From: Paramecium tetraurelia
Taxonomy: Eukaryota > Ciliophora > Oligohymenophorea > Peniculida > Parameciidae
Reading direction: 5' to 3'
NCBI RefSeq assembly: GCF_000165425.1
Contig: NW_001799017.1
Location: 62,001-126,000, forward strand
Length of the DNA: 64,000 nucleotides
The notes under the pieces are model-generated. The model did no database searches. It was not told the origin of the DNA and saw only the letters and a program-made list of their open reading frames with translations. The first letter of the stretch is position 1, and every line of letters begins with the position of its first letter. The position numbers and the translations under genes are program-made. Positions 5,013 to 64,000 of this stretch are shown piece by piece.

Positions 5013-8000
5013 ATGTACTAAATAACATTCTCAAACATAGAGCACACCTTGACATCTTTGGAAATATAGATAAGTCAATTGAGTGAGGACATCCCCATCA
5101 AGGATAACGAAAAATGGGTGGATCTCTGCGGCAACAAGCAAGTGTGGTTGAGGTGCATTTACGATCAGAATTCTTAACCAATCACATCTCTAACTATAAA
5201 AGAATTAAAAGTTGAAGACAATGAATTAGTATTTGAGTTTTATAATAATACAGAAAATACCATTAACAGAAGACATCTATCCTGTGCCAATCAAGCGTAA
5301 ATTCGATTAGCTCACACATCAATTCAAGGGAATCAATAATGGGTATTCCTTATATTAAGGATTTTATGACATCTCCCAATACACAGATCAATAATAAAAA
5401 AAAAATCATCATCTCGTCCTATGCTATAAGACCCAGAACTAAAACAACTATCAGCAACCAATTTGTGACATCCAAATGATATTGGCAGATAAAATTGATA
5501 AGAAGAAATACACGTCCTCATTCAGCGACATGAGACTAGTGATCCCTAAGGATTTTCATGCAATTCAATTTCCATTAAGCAACTTTCGCTTCATCATTTT
5601 CAAATAAAGTAAACCTACTAAACTATAAAATTTATTAAGAATAGTCCCCATTCAAAGTAGCTTACATGCCCAAAATAATTGATAGATATCCTCTAGTAGA
5701 TCATCATGAGAGTCCGTTATCTCACATGATAACTATGATCCCAATGGTAATTAATATAAGTGAAAATCTAGTTTTGTTTTCCGCAAGGCATATACGTTGA
5801 GAAAAGCGAGATAGATCCCATCTCTAAGGGTCAATAAATCTTCAACTTTGTATTGACATCAGAAACTGGAAAAAGGACATATTGTATATGTTTGATTTTT
5901 CATGAAATCATACCTGCAGATATAATGGAATAATTGGGACATATAGATAAACAATAGTTAATTTGCTATCCTAAATCATTGTGCTTACTGAGTTCGCATA
6001 ATTACCCTGAGTAGATGAGAGAACTGATCAAATATATTTACAGATGCTCACTCTCTAAAAACAACATCCCAATTGAGAGTACAATATGCAACATCATCAA
6101 TAAGATTAAATTCCCTCAGCAGATCTTTGAGTAAGAAAATATATGCTTGAAGTATGTATTGCCTTCCTATGATATCTGTTTTTACACCAATTACAAATAT
6201 CCAGTAGGATACAATGAGGCTTTGGAATGTCTGTTCAGATTATTGGATATAAACAGAATCATAAACATTTACAGTGCAATTCTATTGGAGAAGAAGATAC
6301 ATTTTATTTCAAATCACTTATCAGTGCCAGGACTGGTCATCGATGCATTTTTATAATTATTGTTCCCATTTCAATTCACGTCTATTTTGATTCCAGTCTT
6401 GCCTGATAGTTTGAGAGGGTATATTGAGGCTCCTGTGCCTTTCTTGATCGGATATAGCCAAAAGAACATAATAGAGCAGAATCAGCATACTTAGGTTGAC
6501 AGTTTGTATGTGTATTTGGATACTAATTTTATTGTGAATTGCGAAAATTTAACTGCTATACCTGAAAAAGCCTTAAAGAAACTAAAATCTAGTTTAAAGC
6601 CTTTCAATAATTTATTTAATGATGATTACTCGAAACAATACTTAAGAAGAGTAGATTAGGCTTATCATATTTATATGGATGATGACAATTACGATCCTGA
6701 ATTCAATAAAAACATAGATTGGTATTAAATAAGAAATGCATTTTTAGAATGTAACAGTATTCTAATGAAGCAATATAAAAAATACATTATTTCCAATTCA
6801 AATAATGAAGGTGATTTCACTGAGATCTTCTAGGTTCAGGGTTATTATGATCATTGGAAGAAGGATAAATTTATTTAATAATTCATGGAAACAAGAATAT
6901 TCCAGTATTTCATCTAAGAACGCATAAAGTTCAGTGAAAATGAATCACAATACCAATTCTTCGATAAATACATAGAGGGCAAGGATCAGAAACTGAAATT
7001 CATGCTCCCAAAATAAATAATCGAAATTTAAGTGCCTGATGAGGACTAACTCACAGACACCATTCATAAATATGACAAGTTTCCATAATTGAATCACGAT
7101 CTTATGAAGGATTTCTAAGTAGATGAATAGGAGATAAATCAAGAAATATTACAAGAAGACATTCCTTAATTGGATCAGTAGAAATGGTCAAAGTATTTGT
7201 TAGAAACCATGTACAAGATTTGGTTCTTAATTTTTATTGTCAACGTGAGGAATAATCAAGACAACAAGATATTCCAACAGATGACTGAAGTAGCAATCTT
7301 AGTCTTGGAGTACATGAGAGAAAAACATTTGAATTTGACTGAGAAACTATTTCGATATGTACTAGAATCATGTGGCTATTTTCAAATGGATTCAAAGGCT
7401 TTGTATTTAGTGAAGTTAATGAAAGAAATCAAATTGGAAGCATCCCCAGCAACTCATGGAGTCTATTTCTAAGCTGTAGCCCAAGCGATGAATCAAAAAG
7501 GATTGCCAAGTGATCAACAACAACCCTAGGAAATTCACCAAACAGATGTAGTCTTATTGTAAAGAAATGATGGATAAAATGCTTATACTAATTCAGTATA
7601 CTCTCTACATTCCAACTGTCCAAGTTGCAAGAGGAAATTGCATTTTGAAGAGATCCTAGATTCCTATAGAAAGAGTTACTATGAGAATACCATTGAGTGT
7701 TTGAAGATCAATTAGGGTTGTGGGTCCACTTTCATACCCAAAATACAAATCACATTCTATTAAGAGGAAAACCCAATTGAGGCCGAATTGTATGATATTT
7801 ACAATCCGATACAAATACTCAAGAATCTTGAGAACATTGTTAACATCAAAGGAGATGCTTTCTTGATGAGTGACTAATTCGAAAAACAGTATAAGAATTT
7901 ATATGTTAATGTCATATTTTATATCAGACTAGTGAAGTTGCCATATTGCCATTTGGTAAAATTGTAGGATACAAACGAACTGTAAAGCCAAGTTGATTAG

Positions 8001-40893: not shown

Positions 40894-42255
40894 TCAAATA
40901 AAATCTTCATCTTCATCCTTCCAATCTTCCTATTACACCAAATAATCCATGTCTATTTTGAATCGTAAAAATCCTCCCAATCCACTAAAACCTTTCATAA
41001 ATTGATTTCCTTCAACACTGTGATCTGTAATTAATTGGAAATCTAATCCATAATCCTTAAATTTCTCAGACAGATGCTCAACCAGATCCTCCTTTACTGA
41101 AATGACAAACTATTCCCCATTCTTCTCCTCAATTAAACTGCCTGGTTCATATCCCTCGTTTCCTTTCACGTATTTAATTGCTTTTTCTAAAAAATAACAT
41201 GTGATATCATACATTCAGTCTATTTGCTCTAACATTCCAAACGTAAATACTAAAGAGTGTCTACACAGACTAAAGTTTTGATTGTCTATGACTCAACAGC
41301 TCTCATCGTGTCCTAAACACCATACACCACCAAACCTGTATCTTTATCGATGTTTTCAAAGAACTATCCTACCAGATTCTTTTCTCTGATATATTTGACT
41401 TCCAACAAGGACTCTTAACTCAATTAAACTGCTTGATTCAATCCCTATTCACCACCGTAATTGATGTCCACAATTGAAATAATCAATGGTTATAATCTCT
41501 TATCAAAGAATTGACTTCCAGCTAAGTCGTTTTTGAAATCAGCTGAACCTGCCAAGACCAAACCCTTCACATTGGGTCTGTCCTCAGCAATGAAACAGGT
41601 CGTGGCTGTTTCACATACCTTTCTTAAGTAATTATGTCTTTTTTCCATACGGAGACGTGCAAATCTGACTGAAGATTGACCTCCCTTGTTGTGCTTCTTT
41701 GGCAAATCAACGTCAAAGGATTTGATAATTTACTTGCTGTTTCCTTGGATTGTGGCAAACAAGGATCCATTACCATCCATGATGATGAATCCAAAGGGGG
41801 GATCAATGTTTAGCAGTGCCCTTAGTTCTTCCACGTGGAATTGGGGATCACAAAAATAGAGAGACAAATCCAAAGGTCTGTATGGTTCAATGACAACTGA
41901 AATTTTCTTCTCTCCTTTGCCATCTGCTTATTACACAATACCACAAAAAACCACTAATCCATTATTTGGAGCCTTATTGTATGGTCTTAGTCCTTGAATA
42001 GATAATGTATATACTTAGTATGGCTGCTTAAATAGCTTCTTGCACAGATATTCTGTTTCCTTTGTCCTTAATGGATGCTGCTTCTGCATATTAGGTATTG
42101 AGTCTATTCGTGATATCTGAAATGATTCTTTTTGGAGGAATATACACAGACACAACACTTGTGCCAGCAGTTCTTTCTTGACTCAAAGTTTTGATGAGTT
42201 TCTTAAGTCTGAATTGTTCAAGTGCTATTTCAGCATCGCTAAGTTTCTAATCCAT
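40894..42255 (-). CDS. eRF1: Eukaryotic translation release factor 1 (eRF1), UGA-specific type
   Basis: Two introns (22, 26 nt) give 437 codons, the normal eRF1 length. It recognises the stop codon in the ribosomal A site and triggers peptide release with eRF3. Domain 1 has AASIKDK at residues 59-65 where most eRF1 proteins have TASNIKS, and YFCDPQF at 126-132, the YxCxxxF motif. Domain 2 has the catalytic [17 protein letters not shown]. The C-terminal domain ends acidic ([10 protein letters not shown]). The Asp at position 64 in place of Ser fits a factor that ignores UAA and UAG. The gene itself uses TAA and TAG as sense codons. Its start is 90 bp from the stop of the ZIP gene. Confidence 0.96.
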
Positions 42256-43460: not shown

Positions 43461-44226
43461 TGATTTAATTAAATGCCAACATTATACTATATTTATGATT
43501 CTTATAATAACTCTTCATTAAACTATGAATCACTTTCTATATCCAATCTATGAACCAACAAATTACCCCCCCCCCATATATTCTACTCATTCAAATAATA
43601 TTACTATACTCAAACACTTTTGTTGATTCCTAATATTATCATAGATAGAAGTGTTGAATTGAAATTGCATATCTATATATTGGATCTAAATAGAACTATT
43701 AGTAAACTGGAGATTTCAAAATCACAACAAAATGGTATAATTATGCATTAATAGTTTATCAACATATAAAAGTCAAAATAAATTCTGTATTTAAATGAAA
43801 AGTTATTCTCTCACATCTAAATTCAGATTTTCTGTTGACTTTAATTATCATACAATATAGTCAGTATCTGATTATGCTAAAAGTAGGATTGATAGAAGTA
43901 CTTTACTAAGATTATGCTAAATTATACACTCAAATTTCTCAGATATGCTATATTATTTTACACATATTCTAAAAATATGAATTGTAATAATTTGCTAATG
44001 AAAGAAGACTCAAAAAGACTCAAAAACCTTCAGATTTTCAAGATAGAGAGAGGGGATTTTATATAAGTGATGGATTTACATATAATTATTTATATACAGT
44101 GATCAAGTTTAAATCTAATATTAGTGTATTTTGTGTATGCTTATAACAATAAATGCACTAATCCTTGGTTGCTATATGAAATGCAAGAATAATTCAGAAT
44201 AAGAATAAAAAATTGCAGAAAATTGA
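43461..44226. other. Intergenic with a C10 homopolymer
   Basis: AT-rich spacer with no convincing gene. It contains ten consecutive C at 43566-43575, the longest C run in the window. Short protein-like stretches appear at about 44110-44220 on the plus strand but are interrupted by TGA. Confidence 0.5.
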
Positions 44227-44463
44227 TATTTCAAGAGAAGCAAGGAACAATTTCAAAAAGAGACTTGTGAAGGATTAGAAAATTATAATTTGATTCCTTC
44301 ATAAATATCAAAATATAAGGCTAAAATTTTTGAATCCTTTTTAAATAATGACTATTTAGTTAAGCTAAGTAGTATGATGAATCATTCAGGATATTCTATA
44401 AAATGGAAAAAGTAATAAGGAGATGGATAAACCTTAAAATTAAGTGAATTTTAATTATAATGA
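44227..44463 (+). CDS. C-terminal exon of an unresolved or decayed gene
   Basis: After a TGA at 44224 a clean frame reads KRSKEQFQKETCEGLENYNL then IFESFLNNDYLVKLSSMMNH and ends at TGA after LSEFQLQ. The composition is convincingly protein-like, but no ATG or 5' exon could be joined. It lies tail to tail with the gene at 44512. Confidence 0.3.
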
Positions 44464-44511
44464 ATATTGTATATTTATAAATATATATTAATTATATAGA
44501 AAGAAATACTG

Positions 44512-45642
44512 TCACTCTTCAATTTTTACTTTCTATTTTAATTTACTTCTTTCTAAATAATAGACAGGGTTGAGATGAAACTATTTAAAGCATTTAATTG
44601 TACAAAGCGTTACATTTATTTTATAGTATTTATGACAGCTTTCACAAATAAAACTTGATTTGTGGACTTTTTGATTATTCTATTTTTAACACACTTTACA
44701 TCTATTATAACAATTGTACACATACTTCTAGGAATGCAGACCTCTCATAGGGAAATGCAGATTCTTTTCATCCTTGAAAGGAGCTAAATGTGTTGAAATC
44801 ACTTATTTAATTAATTTTGTTGCTTTAATTTTTTTTGTGTATTTTTTAGGGTATTAATTTTGTTAGATTAGTTGGAGATTAAAGATCATGGTATCAGTCT
44901 CTTAATAGGTAAATTTAGGCAAATTTACAAGTAATCTAGCTAAATAATAGATAGAATTTGGTATATCATGTATTAATGTAACATCTTTTATTAAAGAATA
45001 TATGTTATACATTTTTACATATTACTCGTTCTAATCTAATTACTTAGCAAATTTCTCGTGGATCTCATCTACTTTTTTTAATTAATTTAAAGTGAATTTC
45101 TCATAGTCTTCTAGTTTTTCATTATCCTACTAATATTTAAGGATCACATGTTAATTGGAATGTTTAATCGTCAAATAACCATTCGACGAATTGGCTTAAT
45201 CTGTATTCTTTATCCAGATGAAAGCCTTACAGCTGGGATGAGGTAATTCTAACAATCGAAGTGCATGCTGAATTGTTTCTTTTTGTTCTCCCAAGAAATC
45301 TGGACCATAATTTTTAAAATGCAAGCAAACGAAAATCCTATTAACAAGAATTTCAAGAAGAAAGAGCTTAATAGCATCATAGTACCCATTTTCTTTGGAT
45401 TTAAGTTAATCTACATCAAATTGTTGTTGTTTAATAAGAGTGGAAGAGTTGGAATTGTAAGCATAAAGGAATATTGAGTTAATTTCTGATATAAGTCTTT
45501 AGAAAACTATTATTGTAACAAAATTGTTATCCTCTGACTCATATTTATTAGACAATTGTATTTTTGATTAATAGGCTAATTTTACATATAATGCAGCCTC
45601 GACGGTGTCCATAATATAAGCAACATCAGCAGATGAACTCAT
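44512..45642 (-). CDS. Protein with orphan piggyBac-type cysteine-rich domain
   Basis: An intron-free frame of 376 codons. The first 290 residues (MSSSADVAYIMDTVEAALYV...) are helical and not recognised; no DDE/D transposase catalytic core is visible. Residues about 310-355 hold C-x2-C-x11-C-x2-C-x9-C-x3-CF-x3-H (RCKVCQKQ, FICESCHKYY, LCTIKCFKQFH), the pattern of the C-terminal cysteine-rich domain of piggyBac transposases. Paramecium uses domesticated piggyBac proteins (PiggyMac and its partners) in programmed DNA elimination, so a stand-alone domain here is of interest. The zinc-site match is seen; any link to DNA elimination is inference. A different treble-clef zinc finger is the alternative. 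Confidence 0.6.
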
Positions 45643-46612
45643 CTATTTATCTTTAATATTTTTTAATCAAATTTCACTCAGTGTTAATTTAAATAACTAA
45701 AATCAAATATTCATACATCCCCCGAGAAATATGTTTTTTCAATTCAGCCCTTAAATTTTTGGGCCATACTATTTATGAAGCAAAATAGAACGTGTATAAT
45801 TTACTGTAATATTAAATCATATTCAATGAATTGCATTTTATTAGAATGATTTTTGTGCTGTGATAATAATTTGATTAATATTCTCTAATCAGCAAATCTT
45901 TGATTTATTTCCTAGAATTCATAATCTAAATAAATTATATCCTTTCTAATAATTCCAGTGTTATAGGTCTCACTTATTTGAAGTAACCAAACACATTAGA
46001 TTCAGAAGATCCAATTTCAATTAATCATACATTTGTATTCCCTCAAAAGCTTACTACTTTCTTTATGGATATACTATTTTATCTTAAAAACTAAAATATA
46101 ACAATTTTCCCATTTTCCATAAAAAAGCTTCTACTACTTTCTTTTCAAGTATTTTTACATATATTTTATATTTTTATTTTCATATTTATATACATAAGCA
46201 TACTAAATAATTCATTTATTTTTTGTTTTTAAATAAAATTTATAAACTTGAAATAAGAATTTCTTTACATCAGACACACACTTTTATATATATTATTTTT
46301 AATAATTCTATTTCCTATGCAACATAATTAACCTGCATATTATGTTACTGTTATAAAACTCAATAATAACAAGTAATGTGTGAATGTAGTTTTAAAATTA
46401 TTTAGAGACTGATCCACCTAGAAGTCTAATTAGAATGTTGATTCTTGTGTAAGTCAACATTCTAATTATTATACAATCATACTCTAGTTAGTTATCTATT
46501 AAATTAATTAAAAAACTTTGATATATTATATTAAGAAAGTATGTAAAATGAGATAGATTAAATACACAGTCCCTTACTAAAAAATGATAGAGAATCAGAA
46601 CAGAGAGCGTAA
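45643..46612. other. Intergenic, contains a perfect hairpin
   Basis: About 0.97 kb, AT-rich, upstream of both flanking genes. No frame of note was found; the 15-bp inverted repeat at 46427-46468 is the only structure seen. Confidence 0.6.
46427..46468. repeat. Perfect 15-bp inverted repeat with 12-nt loop
   Basis: The arm TAATTAGAATGTTGA (46427-46441) is followed, after 12 nt, by its exact reverse complement TCAACATTCTAATTA (46454-46468). It lies about 150 bp upstream of the P-type ATPase-like gene. It could be a hairpin, a regulatory palindrome or a transposon-end relic. Confidence 0.8.
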
Positions 46613-49191
46613 ATGATAGAGATGCAAGTCTTTAGGAGTTTGAATTAGAATGATTTAGAGAAACATTAGAAAAAAGATGAAATATTAGAAATTGAATCAA
46701 ATAAATTATAATAGATATTGGAAGCAAAAAGTTAATGGAAAACACTCCTAAAAGGATGGAAGAAAGATGGAAATAAATAATAGTAAAATGATGATAATTA
46801 TTTTGGATTTTAATATAATAAATTATTAGAAATCTTTGATCTGAATTAAATAATTAAAGAGGCTCAAAGCTCTTTATAAAAACATGATCAAGAGAAGGAC
46901 TTGATAGAGAAAAGATTGAAAATTTAGATTGAAAAATTAAATTAATTGGGAGGTATTTATGGTCTACAGAACTTTTTGAAAACTTGTATAAAGCAGGGTT
47001 TGGATGATACGAATGATTACGATTTGAAAATGAGAGAGAAATATTTTGGTAAGAATGAGAAACCTCAAATAGCAATAAAAAGTGTACTACAAATAATAAT
47101 TGAATAATTTCAAAAGGAAAGGTTGTTTTAATTATTATTGATAATAACAACTATTAACTTAATAATCTATTTCCATGAGAATGTGTAGATTTACTCATTG
47201 TACATAATAATGCTAATAATAATGGTAGTGTATAAAGGAGTGATAAAATAACAGTATAATAAGGAGATAGTGTAGCATTAAAACGACATCAAGGAGAGGA
47301 GTAAACATTTAATAAAGAGATGTAATGTATTAAGAAATGGAGATGACTCAATTTAGATTCATAATAGTTAATTGGTGGTTGGAGACATATTGATTTTCAA
47401 GCAAGGAGATTTCATATAATGTGATGGTATAATCACTAAGCTATCAAATTGCAATGGAATCGAAGTATTGCAACCATTCCCTAATCTTTTTAACACTCAC
47501 GAGGTTAAAAACGTAGATGAAGTAAAAGATTTACAAGTTATGCATGATGAATAGATGCAGCCTAATATATGTCTGATTGATAATTTCATTTTTGCTGGTT
47601 CTCAAATAATAAAGGGGTCTCTGGACAATTGCTAGTGTGTAGTGTTGGGTAGAAATCATCTGATTACATATAGTACAAGTAGTCCTTTTTGGAGGACACA
47701 AAAACAGAAAAATAAAGAACAACTTATTTGAAATAGAATTCTATGTATAATCCTTTTGCTTTTAAAATTGAATCACTCATGAATAAAATTGGAATACAAT
47801 GCATAATCAGTCTACTTATTTTACTGATAATATTGCTATTCAGGAATACTTATTTAATTAATATTACTCAAATTCTTTTGTATTTGTCATAGCTATCAAT
47901 AATTACTATACCATCTTAACTACTCCAATTGATAAACTTGTTTATGATCTATGTAATAAAGAAATGCAGACAAAGAAGTATTTATATCTAGGACTATTTA
48001 TCGTTGTATTGGTTGGGGTAAGTTAATGAAATAATTATTGATAAAATAGATAACAAAGTTTCAATGTTCAATAAATCATAAATAAATATTAGATATTTCA
48101 CCCAATCGCAATTAGAGGATGCATAAAAAATAGCAATTCAAACAGATCTTGTGAAAGAGGATGAAGTAAATGATAGGTATATCGAAGGTAATTTGTTAAG
48201 CAGTAGTTTCGAATAGAAAAACAAATTTATGTTTCTGAGTAGAAGACTTGTTTGCCCAACTTTGGATCATTTAAAATTAGAAAGGATTTAGTCAAGTAAG
48301 ACATTGGAGTGGCTAGAATAACAGAAATAGAAATTCTAGTTTTAAGGAATTGTTGATTAATAAAAGCTGTATGAGGAGATTAAAAATAAGAACATTATCA
48401 TTGGAGGAAATGCTGATAGAAAAGAACAATTGATAAATTTACTTAAACTCTATGACAAAATTATATTCATAAAGGGAGAAGAAAATGATGGCAAAGCTAT
48501 GGAAATGGCCCATGTTAGTATTGGACCTCATGAGTCTAGATCATGCATCAAACTGTTCAATCATCTAGAGTAAAGCGATCATAGTTACATATCATCCATG
48601 TATGAATGCATCAGTTAAGGGAGGGCAGTTTATTTTTATATTCTGTCATATTCTTATGCTTTGGCTTGCACTTCATAAACCATCATGATCTTTGCAATCT
48701 CTTCAGCCATTTTATCTGATGATATTTTTATTATGCCTATTCCAACTTTCATCATTTTCTATCTCACTTTGAATCATTTTTCACATTAGATTTAAAAACA
48801 ATGCAATTAGGATGTCTAGACCTACGTAATGCATCGAAGTCCCTATACGAAGTAGGGTAGAATTATTGATAGACATACAATGAGGAAACTATACAAATTG
48901 CATTCCATTTTAATTGTTGAGTTACTTATCGCTTCTTACTATGGCTTTTTTCAATCTGTTTAGGATATCTACATTGGATTATTATTTAGCAAACATGTCT
49001 TTATTATGGTTAGACCTATTAAATAAGTGTTACAATAAATTGAAGGCATTATATATGGATTATTAATCAATCTAATCAATTAATTCATAACTTATTCAAA
49101 TTAAGATTATCAAAGCATCTCAATACTCTTAAGAAACTATTCAATTGGTTTAATTGTTGTAGCATTTAATTTATTTGTTGGTTATAGATGA
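46613..49191 (+). CDS. P-type ATPase homologue (PMCA/P2B-like) lacking catalytic motifs
   Basis: One 29-nt intron (47679-47707) gives 849 codons with no in-frame TGA. The N-terminal region LGGIYGLQNFLKTCIKQGLD then YFGKNEKPQ matches the PMCA cytosolic lead into the first membrane pair. An actuator-like segment follows (LVVGDILIFKQGDFIQCDGI), then SIITIPSQLLQLINLFMIYV like the IPEGLP helix. The phosphorylation motif DKTGT is replaced by DKIDN (IIIDKIDNKVS) and the hinge TGDGxND by KGEENDG. Only about 145 codons separate them, so most of the nucleotide-binding domain is gone and no KGA/SPE is seen. Four to six C-terminal membrane helices remain. The TGES motif of the actuator was not found. A structural or regulatory pseudoenzyme is the best reading. 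Confidence 0.75.
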
Positions 49192-49257: not shown

Positions 49258-50198
49258 TCATTTTTATTCTTGCTATTATTCATTTTCAAGTTATTGATTT
49301 TAATCGGCTCCTTCCTCTTAATCCTCTATTTCTTCCTAATTATCATTGTCTTCCTCATATTCCTCATCTTGCTCATCTACCTATTAAGTATTTTTGAGTT
49401 TCTGCATCCTCGATAATTTATCCAAAAAATCAACATTGATACCAAACTCAGGTAGACTCTTTTTACATAGGTTTTTTATTGATTCCAATTATTTTACAAT
49501 CTTTTGATTCTCCTCACTTATCAAATCTCTCTCTACTTATTATTATTATAATAACTCCTTATACTAATTCATTAGTTTCTCTTTCTAGGCAATTTCCTTT
49601 GAGCAAAACTCCTCTGTTTGGATCATGTCTTTCAGTAATGTTTCTTTTTCTACGAGTTTAGCTTTTTTATCATTCAACTCTTTCCATGCTTATCTATTGA
49701 TTATATAGATTCTTACTGCATTTATGTCTCCATTTATTTCTTGATATCAGCAATCTAGAAAGTAGTATTTCCACTTGAATAATAATTTTTTAAGGAATCC
49801 TCATTATTTTCAATTTCCTTTTCAAAGTCTTTTAATTTCTTTTCATATTGGATTTCAAGAGAACCGATTTAAGTACTCCACTTTTCTTCTTGTTTGGCTA
49901 GAAATTGCTTTTTGGTTTCAATAATTGATTCCAATTCACAAAGTTCTTGCTTTAATTCCTATGAGGCATTGGAGTGGTCTGAAATGCCACCGATGATAGA
50001 TTAGGTCGATTTAATCTGTTTCATCTCTTTTTTAATAAATGCTTTACATGAATAGGGAATGATGTCTGTTCTGTGTTATTTCAATTTTTAATGTACTTTC
50101 TATTCACATGAGTAACACATCTTTTCATTACAATCTATACACTGGATTGTAGCTGGATTTATTTGGCATTTTGGACATATCCTTAGAATATTAGACAT
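49258..50198 (-). CDS. B-box zinc finger and coiled-coil protein
   Basis: One 23-nt intron gives 305 codons. Residues 8-50 hold a B-box-like zinc-binding set: ICPKCQINPATIQCIDCNEK, MCYSCEQKVHQKLKQHR. Then follows about 200 residues of coiled coil (ELKQELCELESIIETKKQFL) and a very acidic tail (VDEQDEEYEEDND, EEIEDQEEGAD). The order recalls TRIM proteins without a RING. No C-terminal domain is present. Partner unknown. Confidence 0.7.
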
Positions 50199-50304
50199 TA
50201 TTATTTAATTAAAATAAAATTTAGAATTAAGTTGAATGACTAATATCAAATTTTATAATTTAGAAACAATTTATTATACAAAATAGAAATCAGGGGTTCA
50301 TTCT

Positions 50305-56102: not shown

Positions 56103-57757
56103 TCACTTATTTAATTAACTCATTATTAAATTGGCTTCGTCTCTCTCCGGCCCATTGAAATCATAAAGCCTTTTCGCCATCTGCATCGCCCTTTCATTCT
56201 CTCCCCTTCTCAAAAACGCCCTTGCCAAATATAGTAATGACTCCGATAATTCCTTGTCCACTATTTACTCCTCATCTTTTCTCTTCAAACTCTCCTCAAA
56301 TGCAGACAACGCCTTATCAGTTTTACCCTAAATCCATAGAACACTAAATTATTTACCACTGCATCATACAGTTTCGCCAACTAATGGATAGCAATTCCTT
56401 CTTTATCTTTACATTGGTTTGCCCTTTCATAACATTTCATCGATTCATTTTTCTTATCCATCTTATCGTAACACTCTGCCATTGCATTCCACATTCTCGC
56501 ATCTTTCGGCCTGCTGATAACTGCCCTACTAAAGTAATACAGAGCATATTGATTCATCCCTTGTAATGCATAGGTCTATCCCAAACCATACCAAGCTCTA
56601 AAGTCCTTTGGATCTATTTCTACAGCATTTCTATAGGACTGTATCGCAGATGCCACATTCTTCATTTCTAAATACTCATGACCCATCAGAGTCCAAGCTG
56701 CCAAACAATCCTTATCTAGTTTTAGAGCCCTTTGGAAATAGTTTATCGCTTTTGCATGTTCATTCATAAGAGAATAATAATTTCCAACTACACAGCAAGT
56801 TTCTGGTACATACTTATTATTGGTAAATGATTATAATGCTAAGTTTGCTAGTTCCCCTTAATTTTCCTTTATATACAAAATATTTGAATATGTATCCAAA
56901 CTCTCAAATCTGTAAGGATCAATACTCAGCAATCTTTCAAACCACTCCAGTGATAATTCAAATTCTTAGTTGTTATAATAGGCATTAGCAATTTGATTTA
57001 TGATAAAATTAGAATTCCTAAAGTAATATAGTAATGTCTAGAATTATTCAACACAATTGGCATTCTTAAACTTCTCCAAATTAAAATTAGAACTCCAAAA
57101 TAATTTCATCCAATGATTTGGTAATTCCTCCAAAGTATCTTCTTCTGTTAGCAATTTACACAACTCCAACCAAACACTCCAAAAACAAGGCATTTGATGT
57201 AAAACCTAGATGAATACTTCTCTCGCTTCTCTTAGTCTCATTGTATCTTTTAAAATCAATCCATAGAGATAGAGATTTAATTAATTTAATTACTTTTGAT
57301 TGTACAATTTTGATAATTCTCTTTCCAATAATTTAAGCTCTGGATTCGTGGCTGTTTTTGAGTTCTCATTCTCAAATATCTCCTCTTCCTTTCTCAACTC
57401 TCCATACATGTATTATGAATAATAATAGAGGAACATTGCTGATTCATTTTTATGGATTAGATTTTATAATAATGATGCACATTTCTTGAACTCTCTTAAA
57501 TCAAATAGATTTCTAGCTACTAAAATGATATCATTGTATTCAGGAACAAATTCTCTTATGAATTGATAATTGTAATCTGTATTGCTTTGGATAAAATGCA
57601 TTGCAAATTATGATTATTATAAATCTTCTTCTTGTGTCAATCCTAATAATAACTCTCCTGTCCATTTGCTAGAATGATAGAGTTTGTTTTCTTGGAAGAA
57701 TCTAGTATAATATTGCAACTCTTTTTGAATTTCTTGCAATTTAGGCATTAATTCCAT
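56103..57757 (-). CDS. CDC23: Anaphase-promoting complex subunit 8 (CDC23), TPR protein
   Basis: One 29-nt intron gives 541 codons, close to the family length. APC8 is a TPR scaffold subunit of the ubiquitin ligase that drives anaphase. The N-terminal third is helical. From about residue 300 tandem TPRs are clear: [20 protein letters not shown], then [80 protein letters not shown]. The stretch [14 protein letters not shown] with [15 protein letters not shown] is the hallmark of CDC23/APC8. The protein ends MSQLNK then TGA. Confidence 0.92.
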
Positions 57758-57793
57758 TTTTCAAATTTCAAAATTATTACTAATTAAAACATA

Positions 57794-59088
57794 ATGATAA
57801 TTGGAGCAATTAAAGTGAAGGATGGTCTCTTCATAGGAGATGAATTAGCCTCTAAAGTAAGATATAGTCTTAACTTATAAAGGACCTTGAATTCGTGATA
57901 CAGAACAAAGTAACTAGAATTGTTAATTGCGCAGCTAAACAACTACCTTGTGTATTTGCAAACTATGGTGTTACCTATCTGAAATTTAACTGGGTAGAGA
58001 ATGAACAAGTACATCCTATATATCATGAATAAGTAAATACTATTTCCAAATGATACTGTTAATGAAATCTATCAATTTATAGAATAAGCACATAGTAATG
58101 GAGAATCTGTTTTGGTTCATTCAGTCAGAGGACAATCTCGTTCATGTTGTGCACTTGCAGCCTACTTTATGAGAAAATATAAGTGGAAACTTTATAAGAC
58201 CTTGGAGTTTCTCAATTCGAGAAGACCAGATCTTGAAATTAGAGCCAGTTTCTATCATCAGTTAACTCAATTGGAGTCCAAACTAAGTAAGAAGGGAGAA
58301 GGAGGTCTATCAAGTTCATGGCAACCACATGAGGAATAAGATTTACCCCTTGAGGAAGATGAAAATCTTCTCAGGAATACGTTTATGAATGCCAAATCCA
58401 GTCCAGCTGATTCATGTTGGTTAGATAGAAGACTATTCAATTAATATCTAAACGAAAACAGAGTCAGAACCATCACTTGGGCTGATGAAACCTTAGCTAA
58501 AAAGTCCTAAAAAAAGATCAAATAGACTAATCCCAAGAATGCTGTTAAATTGAATAGTTAAAATAATATAAGTGGGAATATCTACCACGTGACAGTTAAT
58601 AATTATGTAACTCTGAAAGAAGAATTAGAAAAATACAATTCCAGTATGAATTCCAGAGAAAATAATAATACACTTATCAAACCAAATAGTGGAACTATCA
58701 AAAGATAGTAAAATGATAGTCTCAAAAAGCATTAAGAATAGAAACTTAAATAAACTGGGAAATCTCAATCCTTAAAGTAATAAAAAAGGGACCCAACAGA
58801 CAGACCTAGATCTGCCTATGTGTACCAATATTAATTATTCTAGATAGCCTGAAATGCAACCCCCTGTTAATATTCCAAAACCAGCACCCTTTCCTTATCG
58901 CCAATTTTCTCCTGTTGTGAAAGGTAGTTAGATTTAATTACTTAAATTTAGGAAACAATGTTCCTAAAGTAACCTAATTGATTCCAACGAATAAAAACAA
59001 AGGGTGGAGATATCCATCACCTGGGTAATTGAAGAACGATGAGGATTTCATACAATCTTTTATCAACAGCAAACCTGTATGGAAATGA
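57794..59088 (+). CDS. Dual-specificity phosphatase-like pseudophosphatase
   Basis: Four introns (26, 25, 22, 28 nt) give 397 codons. The first 160 residues have the dual-specificity phosphatase fold: MIIGAIKVKDGLFIGDELAS, VTRIVNCAAKQLP, then HSVRGQSRSCCALAAYFMRK. In active enzymes the loop is HC-x5-R; here Ser replaces the nucleophilic Cys while His and Arg are kept, so it should bind phosphorylated residues but not cleave them. This parallels STYX-type proteins. The downstream helix RRPDLEIRASFYHQL is conserved in form. The C-terminal 230 residues are basic and low-complexity. Start 36 bp from the APC8 start on the other strand. Confidence 0.85.
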
Positions 59089-59163: not shown

Positions 59164-62100
59164 TCAAAGGTTTTCTTCCAAATGTTCAGATTTATCTATC
59201 CTTCTTATTAATTCTTTCTCTGATGTTTAATTTAATTGTCTCTTCATTCTATTTAACTGCTCCAACTGATCATCATTTTCTCTTCTCATTATATTTAGCT
59301 GCTCGCTTTTTGCCTACAACAATGTTTAAGCATCTGACAACTCAAAATTCAGTCTTTATATTTCTTTTGTCAACTTCGCCACATCCTCATTGTCTCCTCT
59401 TCTTTTATTCAATTATTCAAAAGTTTATTCGAACTCTTATTCTTTCAACTCTAGATCACTCTTCAACTTTTCAACTTATCTTCTCAATGATTATTTCTCA
59501 CTATTTGATTTTAGCTAACTGCTCTCTAATTCATGAATCTCATTCAATAAATTGATGTTTTTCTATTTCAATTATTCATAGTCTTCAACATGTACATAAT
59601 TCTAATCAATTTATCTTCTAAGAGAATCATACAATACTTCTTTATCTTAGAGTTGAATTTCTAAATTCGAAAATTATTATTATATTTGATTCAATTTTGA
59701 CTCTTTTTAATCGAGCTTTTATTATAATATTTCAATCTCATTATTCAAAACAGCCTAAATTATCTATTTAAATATATACCTTTTCATTTTCAACTTAGAA
59801 TTCCCAATCTTATCTCTAGTTTTCTCCTTCAGCATAATTTTGGATCTTTTAATTCAATTATTCAATTTCCTCAGTTAACTCATTTTTAACTTCAACTAAT
59901 TTTTCTTTTTGATTTTCTAAACTCTTAATTAAAGAATCCTTCTCTTGAAGCAATTACTCAATTTATTTATTAGATTCCTTATGTTCCTCTTAATATTTAA
60001 TAAATTAATCTTCATTCGATTACAACTACAAATTTAGATTAGCGATTTGATCTAATAGTTTTTACTCTCTCTTTCTTGATTCCTCGATTTTCTTTTAAGA
60101 TTCTAACATAGCATGATCAAGCGATTTTTAGGCTTTGTCAATTTAGTTATTTTGATTGTGAATTTCAATTTCGTATTAGTTAATTGCTTACTTATACTAT
60201 GATATTCTTGTTTCTTAAAAGCCAAATTTTTAGTTAAATTGGCTTCTTTCAAGATCTCTTTGTTGAGTTGATTCTTCTAATTCCTTCAAATAAATATCAG
60301 CACTTTATTTTAATTCTACTACTTGGAATTCTGCTTAGGTCAATCTTTCCTTATTTGATTTTAATAAAGATTCAAACTTCTATTTTTCTGAATTAAATTA
60401 GCTGATCTACCAGTCTTTTTATTTAATTTGTTCTTAATAATTTTAGATCTATTGAGAGGAACTAAATTCCAATTCAATTTTTGCAGTTTCCAATTCCTTT
60501 GCTCTCTATTTTTATTACTTTAATTATTGTTCCATTAATTATTTTTCTTATTGTAACTTGACATTTTATTCCTTTAATTCTTTTTTGAAGTTCTCCAATT
60601 CAAATTAATAATCTTCCAATTCCTTTTATTTTTATTTCTCTGTATCGCTCAATTAATGCTTCAAACCATTAATTGAATTATCTAACAACTGTTAATTAAG
60701 TTTATATTCATTGATTTATTCATCCTTCTTACGACTTTAGATAATTAATTTTTCATTCTCTAAATTTAGGAATTTAATTTATTCTTCTAAATTTTAGAGT
60801 TATTATTGGTTAAAACCTTTCAATTCTTAAATATCAGTTTCCCATTGCTCCCTAATACTGGCTTCAATTTCTTTTGTAACATTCTTTTATAATTCTAATT
60901 CGCTCTTGATATCATTAGCAATAACTTATTGTTTACTTAATTCATGTAATTTAGTCTAGTACTTAGAGGACTATTCTAAAAGTTATTGTTTTAACTTCTA
61001 AAGATCTTCTTATTGTTATTATATTTCTAAATCTTTGAATTTATTGATTCTTTCTAATTCTTACTATAATATTTTGATCTCTTTCTCTTACTCTTGATCT
61101 ATAGCATATAATTTTGCATTTTCAGTCTTCATTACTTAATAATTGTTCTCAGATTGTTACAATTATGCTTACAACTCTCTTATTATTTAATCTTATTGCT
61201 AATTTTCTGTTGAGTGTTTTAATTCGGTTTCATTTAGTCTTCTTTACAAGTTGTTGATTTATTATTATTCATAATATTATTTGAGTTCCTAGATCTATTT
61301 TTGATGTGAGAGTTCTTATTTGGCTTGTTTATCATGAACTAGTTATACTTCCTTATGCAAGCTCATATTTTTTAATCTGAATTCTTCGCACATTTAGTTT
61401 TATTGTTGAAGTTATTATTAAATCACTAACTTCTCGTCTTGAAGATCGTCTATCAACAATTACATCTTATTTTTTTCATTTACTAAATTATCAAATTAAC
61501 CTAAGAGTTTTGAATACTTTTATTATTCCTATATAAGTTAGTCGTTCTTTTTGCTCAAAATTTATTAATGTTATTATTGGATGTCCTTTAATTGTATTTA
61601 GCTTTAATGAGAACAATCATTTTCAACTTTTATTTTTGTTTCCTCAATCTATCTTGCACTTTTGAAATGAGTATCTTGAACTTATTATTTCAAATTTTAT
61701 AATTCATACTCTAAATTTTAGATATAGGCTTTTAAATTCTAATTCTCATCAACACTTTGAACATTCTTGATAATAAATCATAATAATTACATTTTGTGAA
61801 ATCTAAATAAACTTGGTTTCATTTTTTTTCAATTCATTGACTAATAGTTAAATCTCCTCATTCTTCTTTTATAATAACAATTATTATTGTTTAATATTAT
61901 GTTATTCAGTTTATAATTTATAAGTTTGATTAGAGAGTTGAATTTCTAATTCATTGATAATTTTATTGTATTTTTATTGATCAGCTTAGATTTAGTTTTA
62001 AAGTTAAAGATTTTCAGTACTCAATTTACCATATCTAGCTTCATATGAATCAATAATTTTGATGTTTTCCTTCTTTCTTAAATTCGGAGATTAATCCTAC

Positions 62101-62495: not shown

Positions 62496-64000
62496 TCATT
62501 TTTTCATTGTTTTGCTTTTTGGTTTTATTTTTTAGACATATAACTATTAAACTGAGACTTAGGTTTTTTTCTAAGAACTGGCACTCTTCTGAGCACTAGT
62601 AATTCTTTGAGTTTCAATGTTAGATTGTGTTTTTTGTTTTGAATTGATTTTTGGACTTTCAAGCATGGCCTTATACTGTTAGAATGGAGTCTTAATATTT
62701 AAATTATTCATATTAAGTTGATTGATATTGATGTTGATATTAGCTGACAGAGGAACAGATGATTGGGATGTATAGATTTTGAAGAGTTTTTCAGAAGATT
62801 TGGTATGTGTTAATGACTACTTGGCATCTTATCCCATATTAGTGTGCATTTTCATAGAGAGGTGCTTCTAATGCTTATTAGGAGAGTTTATCTCTGTATA
62901 ATGAGTTTATGTCTGACTTTTCTTATGAGTAGGAATTACTAAATTGGGACTATTGCTTTATTTCAATGGTTATTATGATTATATTAATTTTAATTGCTCT
63001 GAAGATATGCTTCTAGTACTAGTGATGTAATGAATGCTGTTTTGTTTAGATTGATAATTCGATATGTGATTAGCTTTTCCTGATTATTTGGAACTGAATA
63101 GACATGGATTTGCGTGATTAACAGTTAAAATCTGTTATTTTAAGAACTTTTGTAAATCCGTATCTCCATTGCTGCTATTGATAAGTTTATTGGAAGAAAC
63201 TAAGGACTTTTGGGAAGTATCTTTACTTAAGGTCTTGAAATGTCCTTTTTGTTGAGGAGACTTTTAGACTGGCCTTTTACTTATTCCTGCAGCATAGATA
63301 TTTTATTTGTCCTTATAAAATTGAGTATTTTTGGATATTAGTTATTTAAGTAATTTCAAGTTAGGGGGATACTAAGATTTCTATTGCTATTATTGAGTCA
63401 TAGTCATCCATGTTGCATCAATATTCTAATATGAGGGGAGATATATTTACAATAATTTCATCACTAGCCTTAGACTTTAAGATCTCTCTTAACACTGAAA
63501 GACTTGACACTTGAGTCTACTGGGTTATGCTATTTAATACTTTGATGTCTTCTTTGAGCTTCTCATATTCTAATTATTTTGATGTGATTACATGTGCAAT
63601 TACTAGCATCTTCCACTGGAATACCAAGCATGAATTTTATCTTCCTATACTCTATCTATCTAATGGTTTAATCTAAAAATAATGTACTTCTTTTTCTCAT
63701 AAAAATAGATTGCCAAATCAGACACTCTTGGCATGAACATTCTTGGAATATCTTTGTGATACTTGTAGTATTCTAACAATTACTCAAACTTCATAGGTTG
63801 ATCATTTTGTGGGTAAAATCTATGAAGCAACATTAATTATCCTGTATATACCTTTTTAGAAATTCATCATAATCTTCAAGAGTCAATCTATCTTTGAATT
63901 TAATAACCCATGATATTGGCTTTGTTGAAAATAAATCCTCGTATTTTCTTCCATTCCATTGCGATTATGAGTATTTCGTGTACAAAGCCTAAATGCCATT
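62496..64000 (-). CDS. Hypothetical protein with long Ser/Gln/Lys-rich tail (5' end cut by window)
   Basis: The visible part starts in mid-gene (QWNGRKYEDLFSTKPISWVI, LTLEDYDEFLKRFYPQNDQP) and has a globular, aromatic-rich section to about residue 100 (RMFMPRVSDLAIYFYEKKKY). It continues with a short coiled coil (YEKLKEDIKVLNSITQQ) and a long unstructured Ser/Gln/Asn/Lys-rich tail ending KSKTMKK then TGA. Introns of 32, 22, 22 and 25 nt fit. No family was recognised; the N-terminus lies beyond base 64000. Confidence 0.6.

Follow-up and report, generated by a model that had tools for sequence, protein, structure and literature searches.

A probable P2B-like pseudo-pump of Paramecium tetraurelia, constrained as strongly as its DKTGT-bearing relatives in the actuator region

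What use is a pump that cannot pump? This question is raised by a Paramecium tetraurelia gene located at positions 46541–49191 (forward strand, stop codon TGA at 49189–49191) of a 64,000-nucleotide stretch of DNA, hereafter the window, which corresponds to positions 62001–126000 of contig C64 in a 69-Mb genome of 231 contigs. The window was translated with the ciliate code (table 6), which resulted in long frames. The gene encodes a free-standing relative of plasma-membrane Ca2+ pumps (PMCA type, class P2B), whose energy-using motifs are gone and whose constraint is about equal to that of motif-keeping pumps. Our reading is that the protein is probably a pseudo-P2B-ATPase, i.e., a PMCA-derived membrane protein, non-functional as a pump and kept by selection for a non-pumping role. 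Selection-kept dead enzymes are well known among kinases and phosphatases; among P-type ATPases, the other cases known to us are either contested (TMEM94) or form part of a fusion protein. As Paramecium genes can be silenced by feeding, the opening question is a directly testable one in this organism.

Single-protein searches of the genome revealed one further copy of the gene, on contig C11. In addition, four intact orthologues (P0001–P0004, 881–883 amino acids (aa)) were found in three species, i.e., Paramecium primaurelia, P. pentaurelia, and P. sonneborni. The initial annotation, made from the letters of the window without database searches, had proposed to look for orthologues sharing the same losses, and all four intact proteins do share them; as annotated by others, they likewise lack the DKTGT motif. 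The window and C11 copies differ from these four database proteins at 5–11% of residues, so none of them is this genome's own protein.

The motifs are called here by their customary names (TGES, PEGLP, DKTGT, KGA, TGD, and TGDGxND, with the usual numbering of HAD motifs). The names and the numbering are partly borne out by PMC10654040 and PMC6592433. In the alignment, the phosphorylation site DKTGT is replaced by DKID(N) at 48040–48051, with D and K kept, and TGDGxND by KGEE-ND-G at 48472–48492, both as the initial annotation had claimed. DKID stands in both copies of the genome (window and C11) and in 4/4 orthologues; the second replacement reads KGEEND in both copies of the genome and KGEE-ND in the four orthologues. 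These two motifs lie 144 residues apart in the window (about 145 had been given) and in each of the orthologues, versus 262–310 in 13 active relatives. Between these motifs, at the place of the nucleotide-binding (N) domain, lies a shortened, less conserved stretch (48052–48330), and the KGA, DPPR, and TGD segments fall in alignment gaps in 4/4 orthologues. Further replacements, whose pairing depends on the alignment, affect the dephosphorylation motif TGES (T[HYQ]EV in the orthologues; THEV at 47495–47506), the M4 cation site PEGLP (P[ST]QLL in the orthologues; PSQLL at 47911–47925), and the M6 motif WxNLxxD (YL[TA]LNHF or YLTINHF), in all four orthologues each time. The segment described earlier as "IPEGLP-like" is present, with the actual letters IPSQLL (P at 47911). 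Eight residues, i.e., T319, E321, P458, D501, K502, K628, N649, and D650 (P0001 numbering), are kept in 17/17 aligned sequences.

The homology to a PMCA-type pump, already proposed in the initial annotation, was borne out by Pfam, NCBIfam, and profile comparisons, and it covers the membrane helices M1 through M10. PF00690 (Cation_ATPase_N) scored above its cut-off in all four orthologues and the P2B N-terminal motif is present; in the window, this motif (GGIYGLQNFLKT..GL..FGKNEKP), together with the start of M1, spans 46946–47155. PF00122 (actuator (A) domain) was matched in 4/4 (25.7, 29.7, 26.2, and 26.8 bits), in one case above the cut-off of 28.1 bits. The best NCBIfam match of each orthologue was TIGR01517 (PMCA type, E ~1e-15), with 54.7–56.3 bits, far under the cut-off of 507.05. 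P0003 also matches PMR1-type TIGR01522 at 4.8e-14, other P2 profiles come close, and the top PDB sequence match of the C11 copy is SERCA2. Identity to active pumps is about 20%, too low for a reliable tree; the N-terminal motif and TIGR01517 point to a P2B origin, while a P2A origin seems less likely.

The protein shares with P2B (PMCA-type) Ca2+-ATPases of TIGR01517 the GG.xGL..LKT..GL N-terminal motif and the M1–M2 region and, probably, the A domain and the membrane layout. It differs from them in that the catalytic and cation motifs are lost, the N domain and the TGD segment are missing and, according to the structure model, the protein would end with its last helix, with no tail beyond it. 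The M1–M2 (47081–47311) and M3–M4 (47752–47979) regions were delimited by hydropathy and the secondary structure of this weak model, the A domain (47312–47664) by profile and sequence comparison, and the M5–M10 region, with its replaced M6 cation motif, occupies 48580–49188. P2-type Ca2+ pumps encoded elsewhere in this genome have a similar A domain (L004, 26–32% identity) but carry DKTGT, at 30/30 loci examined; these actuator loci are the best 30 of 117 matches in the genome, and hence a favourable sample. A subgroup of these pumps (L024, L025, and L027) reads CQVLGG..FDKTGTLT; in a local tblastn search its members, together with L002–L004 and L010, were among the nearest to the pseudo-pump.

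Is the protein drifting after the loss of its motifs? Between the window and C11 copies, with the frame breaks described below excluded, the nonsynonymous (dN) and synonymous (dS) divergence was 0.047 and 1.14, respectively, which gives a dN/dS of 0.042 (877 codons). This is far from the neutral value that the initial annotation had named as a possible refutation and, together with the intact orthologues, led us to reject a neutral pseudogene family. In the actuator region dN/dS was 0.032, versus 0.012–0.088 in nine pairs of DKTGT-bearing pumps (ten pairs were hand-picked among the 30 DKTGT loci, and the saturated pair L026/L029 was excluded); this region is constrained as much as in the DKTGT-bearing pumps. 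Across six sequences, 96% of the columns of the P2B motif (43/45), 95% of the segment preceding DKID (19/20), and 93% of the residual phosphorylation (P) domain (77/83; 48331–48579, with the K of motif III and the ND of motif IV kept) were invariant. The corresponding values were 71% (69/97) for the shortened N region and 70% (94/135) for the N-terminal extension of about 135 residues (46541–46945), the least conserved part. As the residual P domain belongs to the best-kept parts, the dead core is not drifting.

The gene is, however, not a single open frame in this assembly. The open reading frame (ORF) listing of the window splits it over two overlapping frames, 46442–47731 and 47581–49191, and reading from 46541 as assembled, the first frame ends after 396 codons. 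The "849 uninterrupted codons" of the initial annotation are wrong here, as its span 46613–49191 comprises 2579 bases, which is not divisible by three; yet a single frame is right in spirit for the pseudo-pump family. In Pfam searches, the first frame matched Cation_ATPase_N (1.8e-5) and, partially and under its cut-off, E1-E2_ATPase (3.9e-5), and the second gave only a trace match (0.087). Clear homology to C11 sets in a short way before the ATG at 46541 and the intact orthologues begin with MQNE (4/4), so, as far as sequence comparison goes, the pseudo-pump probably starts at this codon; position 46613 was rejected as a start on the same grounds.

Relative to the C11 duplicate, the window copy is two bases longer near 47615–47621, inside the A domain (feature bounds 47613–47621), where the orthologues read through as KGSGQLLVCSVG. 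The C11 copy shows a different break, being one base short near codon 55, and the frames of the four orthologues are continuous across both sites. A conserved programmed frameshift was rejected, since the breaks of the two copies do not coincide and the orthologues have neither. Each duplicate in this genome has one break, which is recent or artefactual, and the pseudo-pump family itself is not a pseudogene.

We give about even chances to the explanation that the breaks are absent at the protein level, being either assembly errors or short frame-restoring introns. Candidates for the latter are, at the window break, a 35-nt GTA..TAG stretch (47639–47673), which would put both frames in register if spliced, and a 26-nt GT..TAG stretch (47617–47642), and, in the C11 copy, a 23-nt GTA..AAG stretch, counted by eye on the alignment with the window copy. 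Their lengths suit P. tetraurelia introns, which measure 20–35 bp in 99.9% of cases according to an excerpt of PMC5663052, and GTA..TAG is favoured in Paramecium introns, as stated in a portion of PMC9612004; the selection without relaxation also speaks for this explanation. On the other hand, GTA..TAG stretches of suitable length are common, as 70 of 215 overlapping 150-nt segments taken from the pseudo-pump gene contain one, and splicing would remove residues that the four orthologues keep at both sites. The family might instead be undergoing loss in this species, which we regard as possible but somewhat doubtful: independent frame-breaking indels would recently have made pseudogenes of both duplicates, whereas the gene is retained in other species. 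The two breaks indeed differ, and five of seven other long window ORFs of the same duplicated block, taken as a control, are unbroken in both copies, which makes frequent assembly error somewhat less likely. The control is not clean, because the remaining two are irregular as well, and this counts against a loss. One of them (62499–63863, reverse strand) is open in the window, and its counterpart at C11:132629–133963 has three in-frame TGA stops, which may represent introns or decay of one copy; the other (41169–42182, reverse strand) matches C11:156439–157453 as two overlapping pieces in different frames, which may reflect an intron, an indel, or a repeat. It is, nevertheless, unusual within this duplicated block for a gene to be broken in both copies. 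Neither broken branch shows an excess of changes (8 window-specific residues versus 15 P0003-specific ones, and 11 C11-specific versus 11 P0001-specific ones, all small numbers), and dN/dS downstream of the window's break is 0.035; any loss would have to be very recent.

What could such a protein do? Judged by its sequence, the pseudo-pump would be unable to bind ATP where active pumps do, to pass through the ordinary phospho-enzyme, or to coordinate Ca2+ as they do. Its A domain, P-domain remnant, and helices would form a fixed pump-shaped platform, which could bind an active PMCA, a lipid, or some other membrane protein as its partner and regulate it or keep it in place. A role as a membrane regulator or scaffold appears likely by analogy with human TMEM94 (ERMA), a ten-helix pump-like protein that also has no TGES (PMC12134183). 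The structures of TMEM94 obtained by cryo-electron microscopy in six conditions were almost the same, and ATPase activity could not be detected (PMC12134183). The status of this protein is disputed, as the authors of that study do not commit themselves and a second group disagrees (PMC13322241). TMEM94 differs in keeping a large N-domain-like CTD3, cut down in the pseudo-pump; TMEM94 chains were not among the listed sequence and fold matches, which is not evidence of absence. The swimming behaviour of the host cell depends partly on Ca2+ pumps, backward swimming being ended at least partly by those of the plasma membrane (PMC9608856, in excerpt), which makes a Ca2+-pump partner, as suggested in the initial annotation, plausible.

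Another comparison is offered by the P4-ATPase domain of alveolate guanylate cyclases (GCs; TgATPaseP-GC, PfGC-alpha/beta, and the Paramecium GC), which is also a P-type ATPase-like module of alveolates, and which in PfGC-beta has lost most signature residues (PMC6592433). These modules are, however, of the P4 type and fused to a cyclase, whereas the pseudo-pump is P2B-like and free of a cyclase domain: none was found in the Pfam scan of the 881–883-aa orthologues, and the protein is not a P-type ATPase–guanylyl cyclase fusion. The statement of the initial annotation that catalytically dead P-type ATPases are "hardly described" is fair for P2B pumps within the literature searched, but the disputed TMEM94 and the degenerate domain of PfGC-beta are precedents. 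With degenerate guanylate-cyclase P4 domains and TMEM94 as a candidate pseudo-pump, the kind is already known; a free-standing P2B-derived pseudo-pump with a reduced N domain and pump-like constraint was not found in our searches of open-licence papers.

Several results weigh against a selection-kept pseudo-pump. Both copies in the genome are frame-broken, which suits a loss here. The Pfam P- and N-domain models found no match at E <= 1 in the four orthologues, and loop residues 560–720 alone were related to active pumps with only 50.5% probability in the profile comparison. The full-length model is weak (mean predicted local distance difference test score (pLDDT) 52.8, predicted template modelling score (pTM) 0.45), and the M4–M5 loop modelled alone is unusable (pLDDT 38.8); PMCA, SERCA, and SPCA head the fold lists, with Foldseek template modelling (TM) scores of 0.31–0.44 among the matches listed, the query being that same weak model. 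Relatives with these losses were not found outside Paramecium among the 7,895–7,998 candidates scored per search, which is weak evidence given this limited number and the fact that the protein searches took words from the first 500 residues; a search with the C-terminal half for fragments or distant relatives returned only the same four orthologues. Finally, D501, K502, K628, N649, and D650, kept in all 17 aligned sequences, may leave room for residual ligand or phosphate binding.

These last residues, in a strongly conserved core, would also suit an active pump of unusual sequence, still phosphorylated but with the nucleotide bound elsewhere. TMEM94, although it has no TGES, bound AMPPCP with an affinity in the micromolar range (PMC12134183), and its claim as a Mg2+ ATPase by another group (PMC13322241) points the same way; with the KGA, DPPR, and TGD segments absent, TGES and both cation-site motifs replaced, and the P and N domains unmatched in Pfam, such a pump is nevertheless very unlikely. 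Pump shells are convertible into channels, and a passive conduit rather than a regulator would agree with helices that look kept while the coupling motifs are gone; the replaced M4 and M6 cation motifs and the lack of any sign of a pore make it improbable. A more speculative version of the non-pumping role, to which we give a small chance, is that the collapsed core has turned into a conserved site of a new kind for a ligand or partner, in which the retained Asp-Lys, Lys, and Asn-Asp of the HAD-type P domain, no longer tied to an ATP-binding domain, serve as a non-hydrolysing sensor. Mg2+, phosphate, a nucleotide, or a phosphorylated partner would be sensed, and the platform would tune a Paramecium Ca2+ pump or channel; if true, this would be a calcium-signalling regulator built from a dead calcium pump.

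As regards the genomic surroundings, window positions 26–64 kb duplicate G000:C11:132–182 kb in inverted orientation, with about 79–84% identity in seven longer matches (C11 was compared over 112–182 kb). Within this block, window positions 43546–46497, with a 384-aa ORF (44512–45666, reverse strand) that has no Pfam match, are unmatched in the 7.4-kb C11 interval 147694–155073 between the flanking matches. Neighbouring genes encode a B-box zinc-finger protein (49677–50297), APC8/Cdc23 (56288–57760; PF04049, 6e-46), and a dual-specificity phosphatase (57983–58849).
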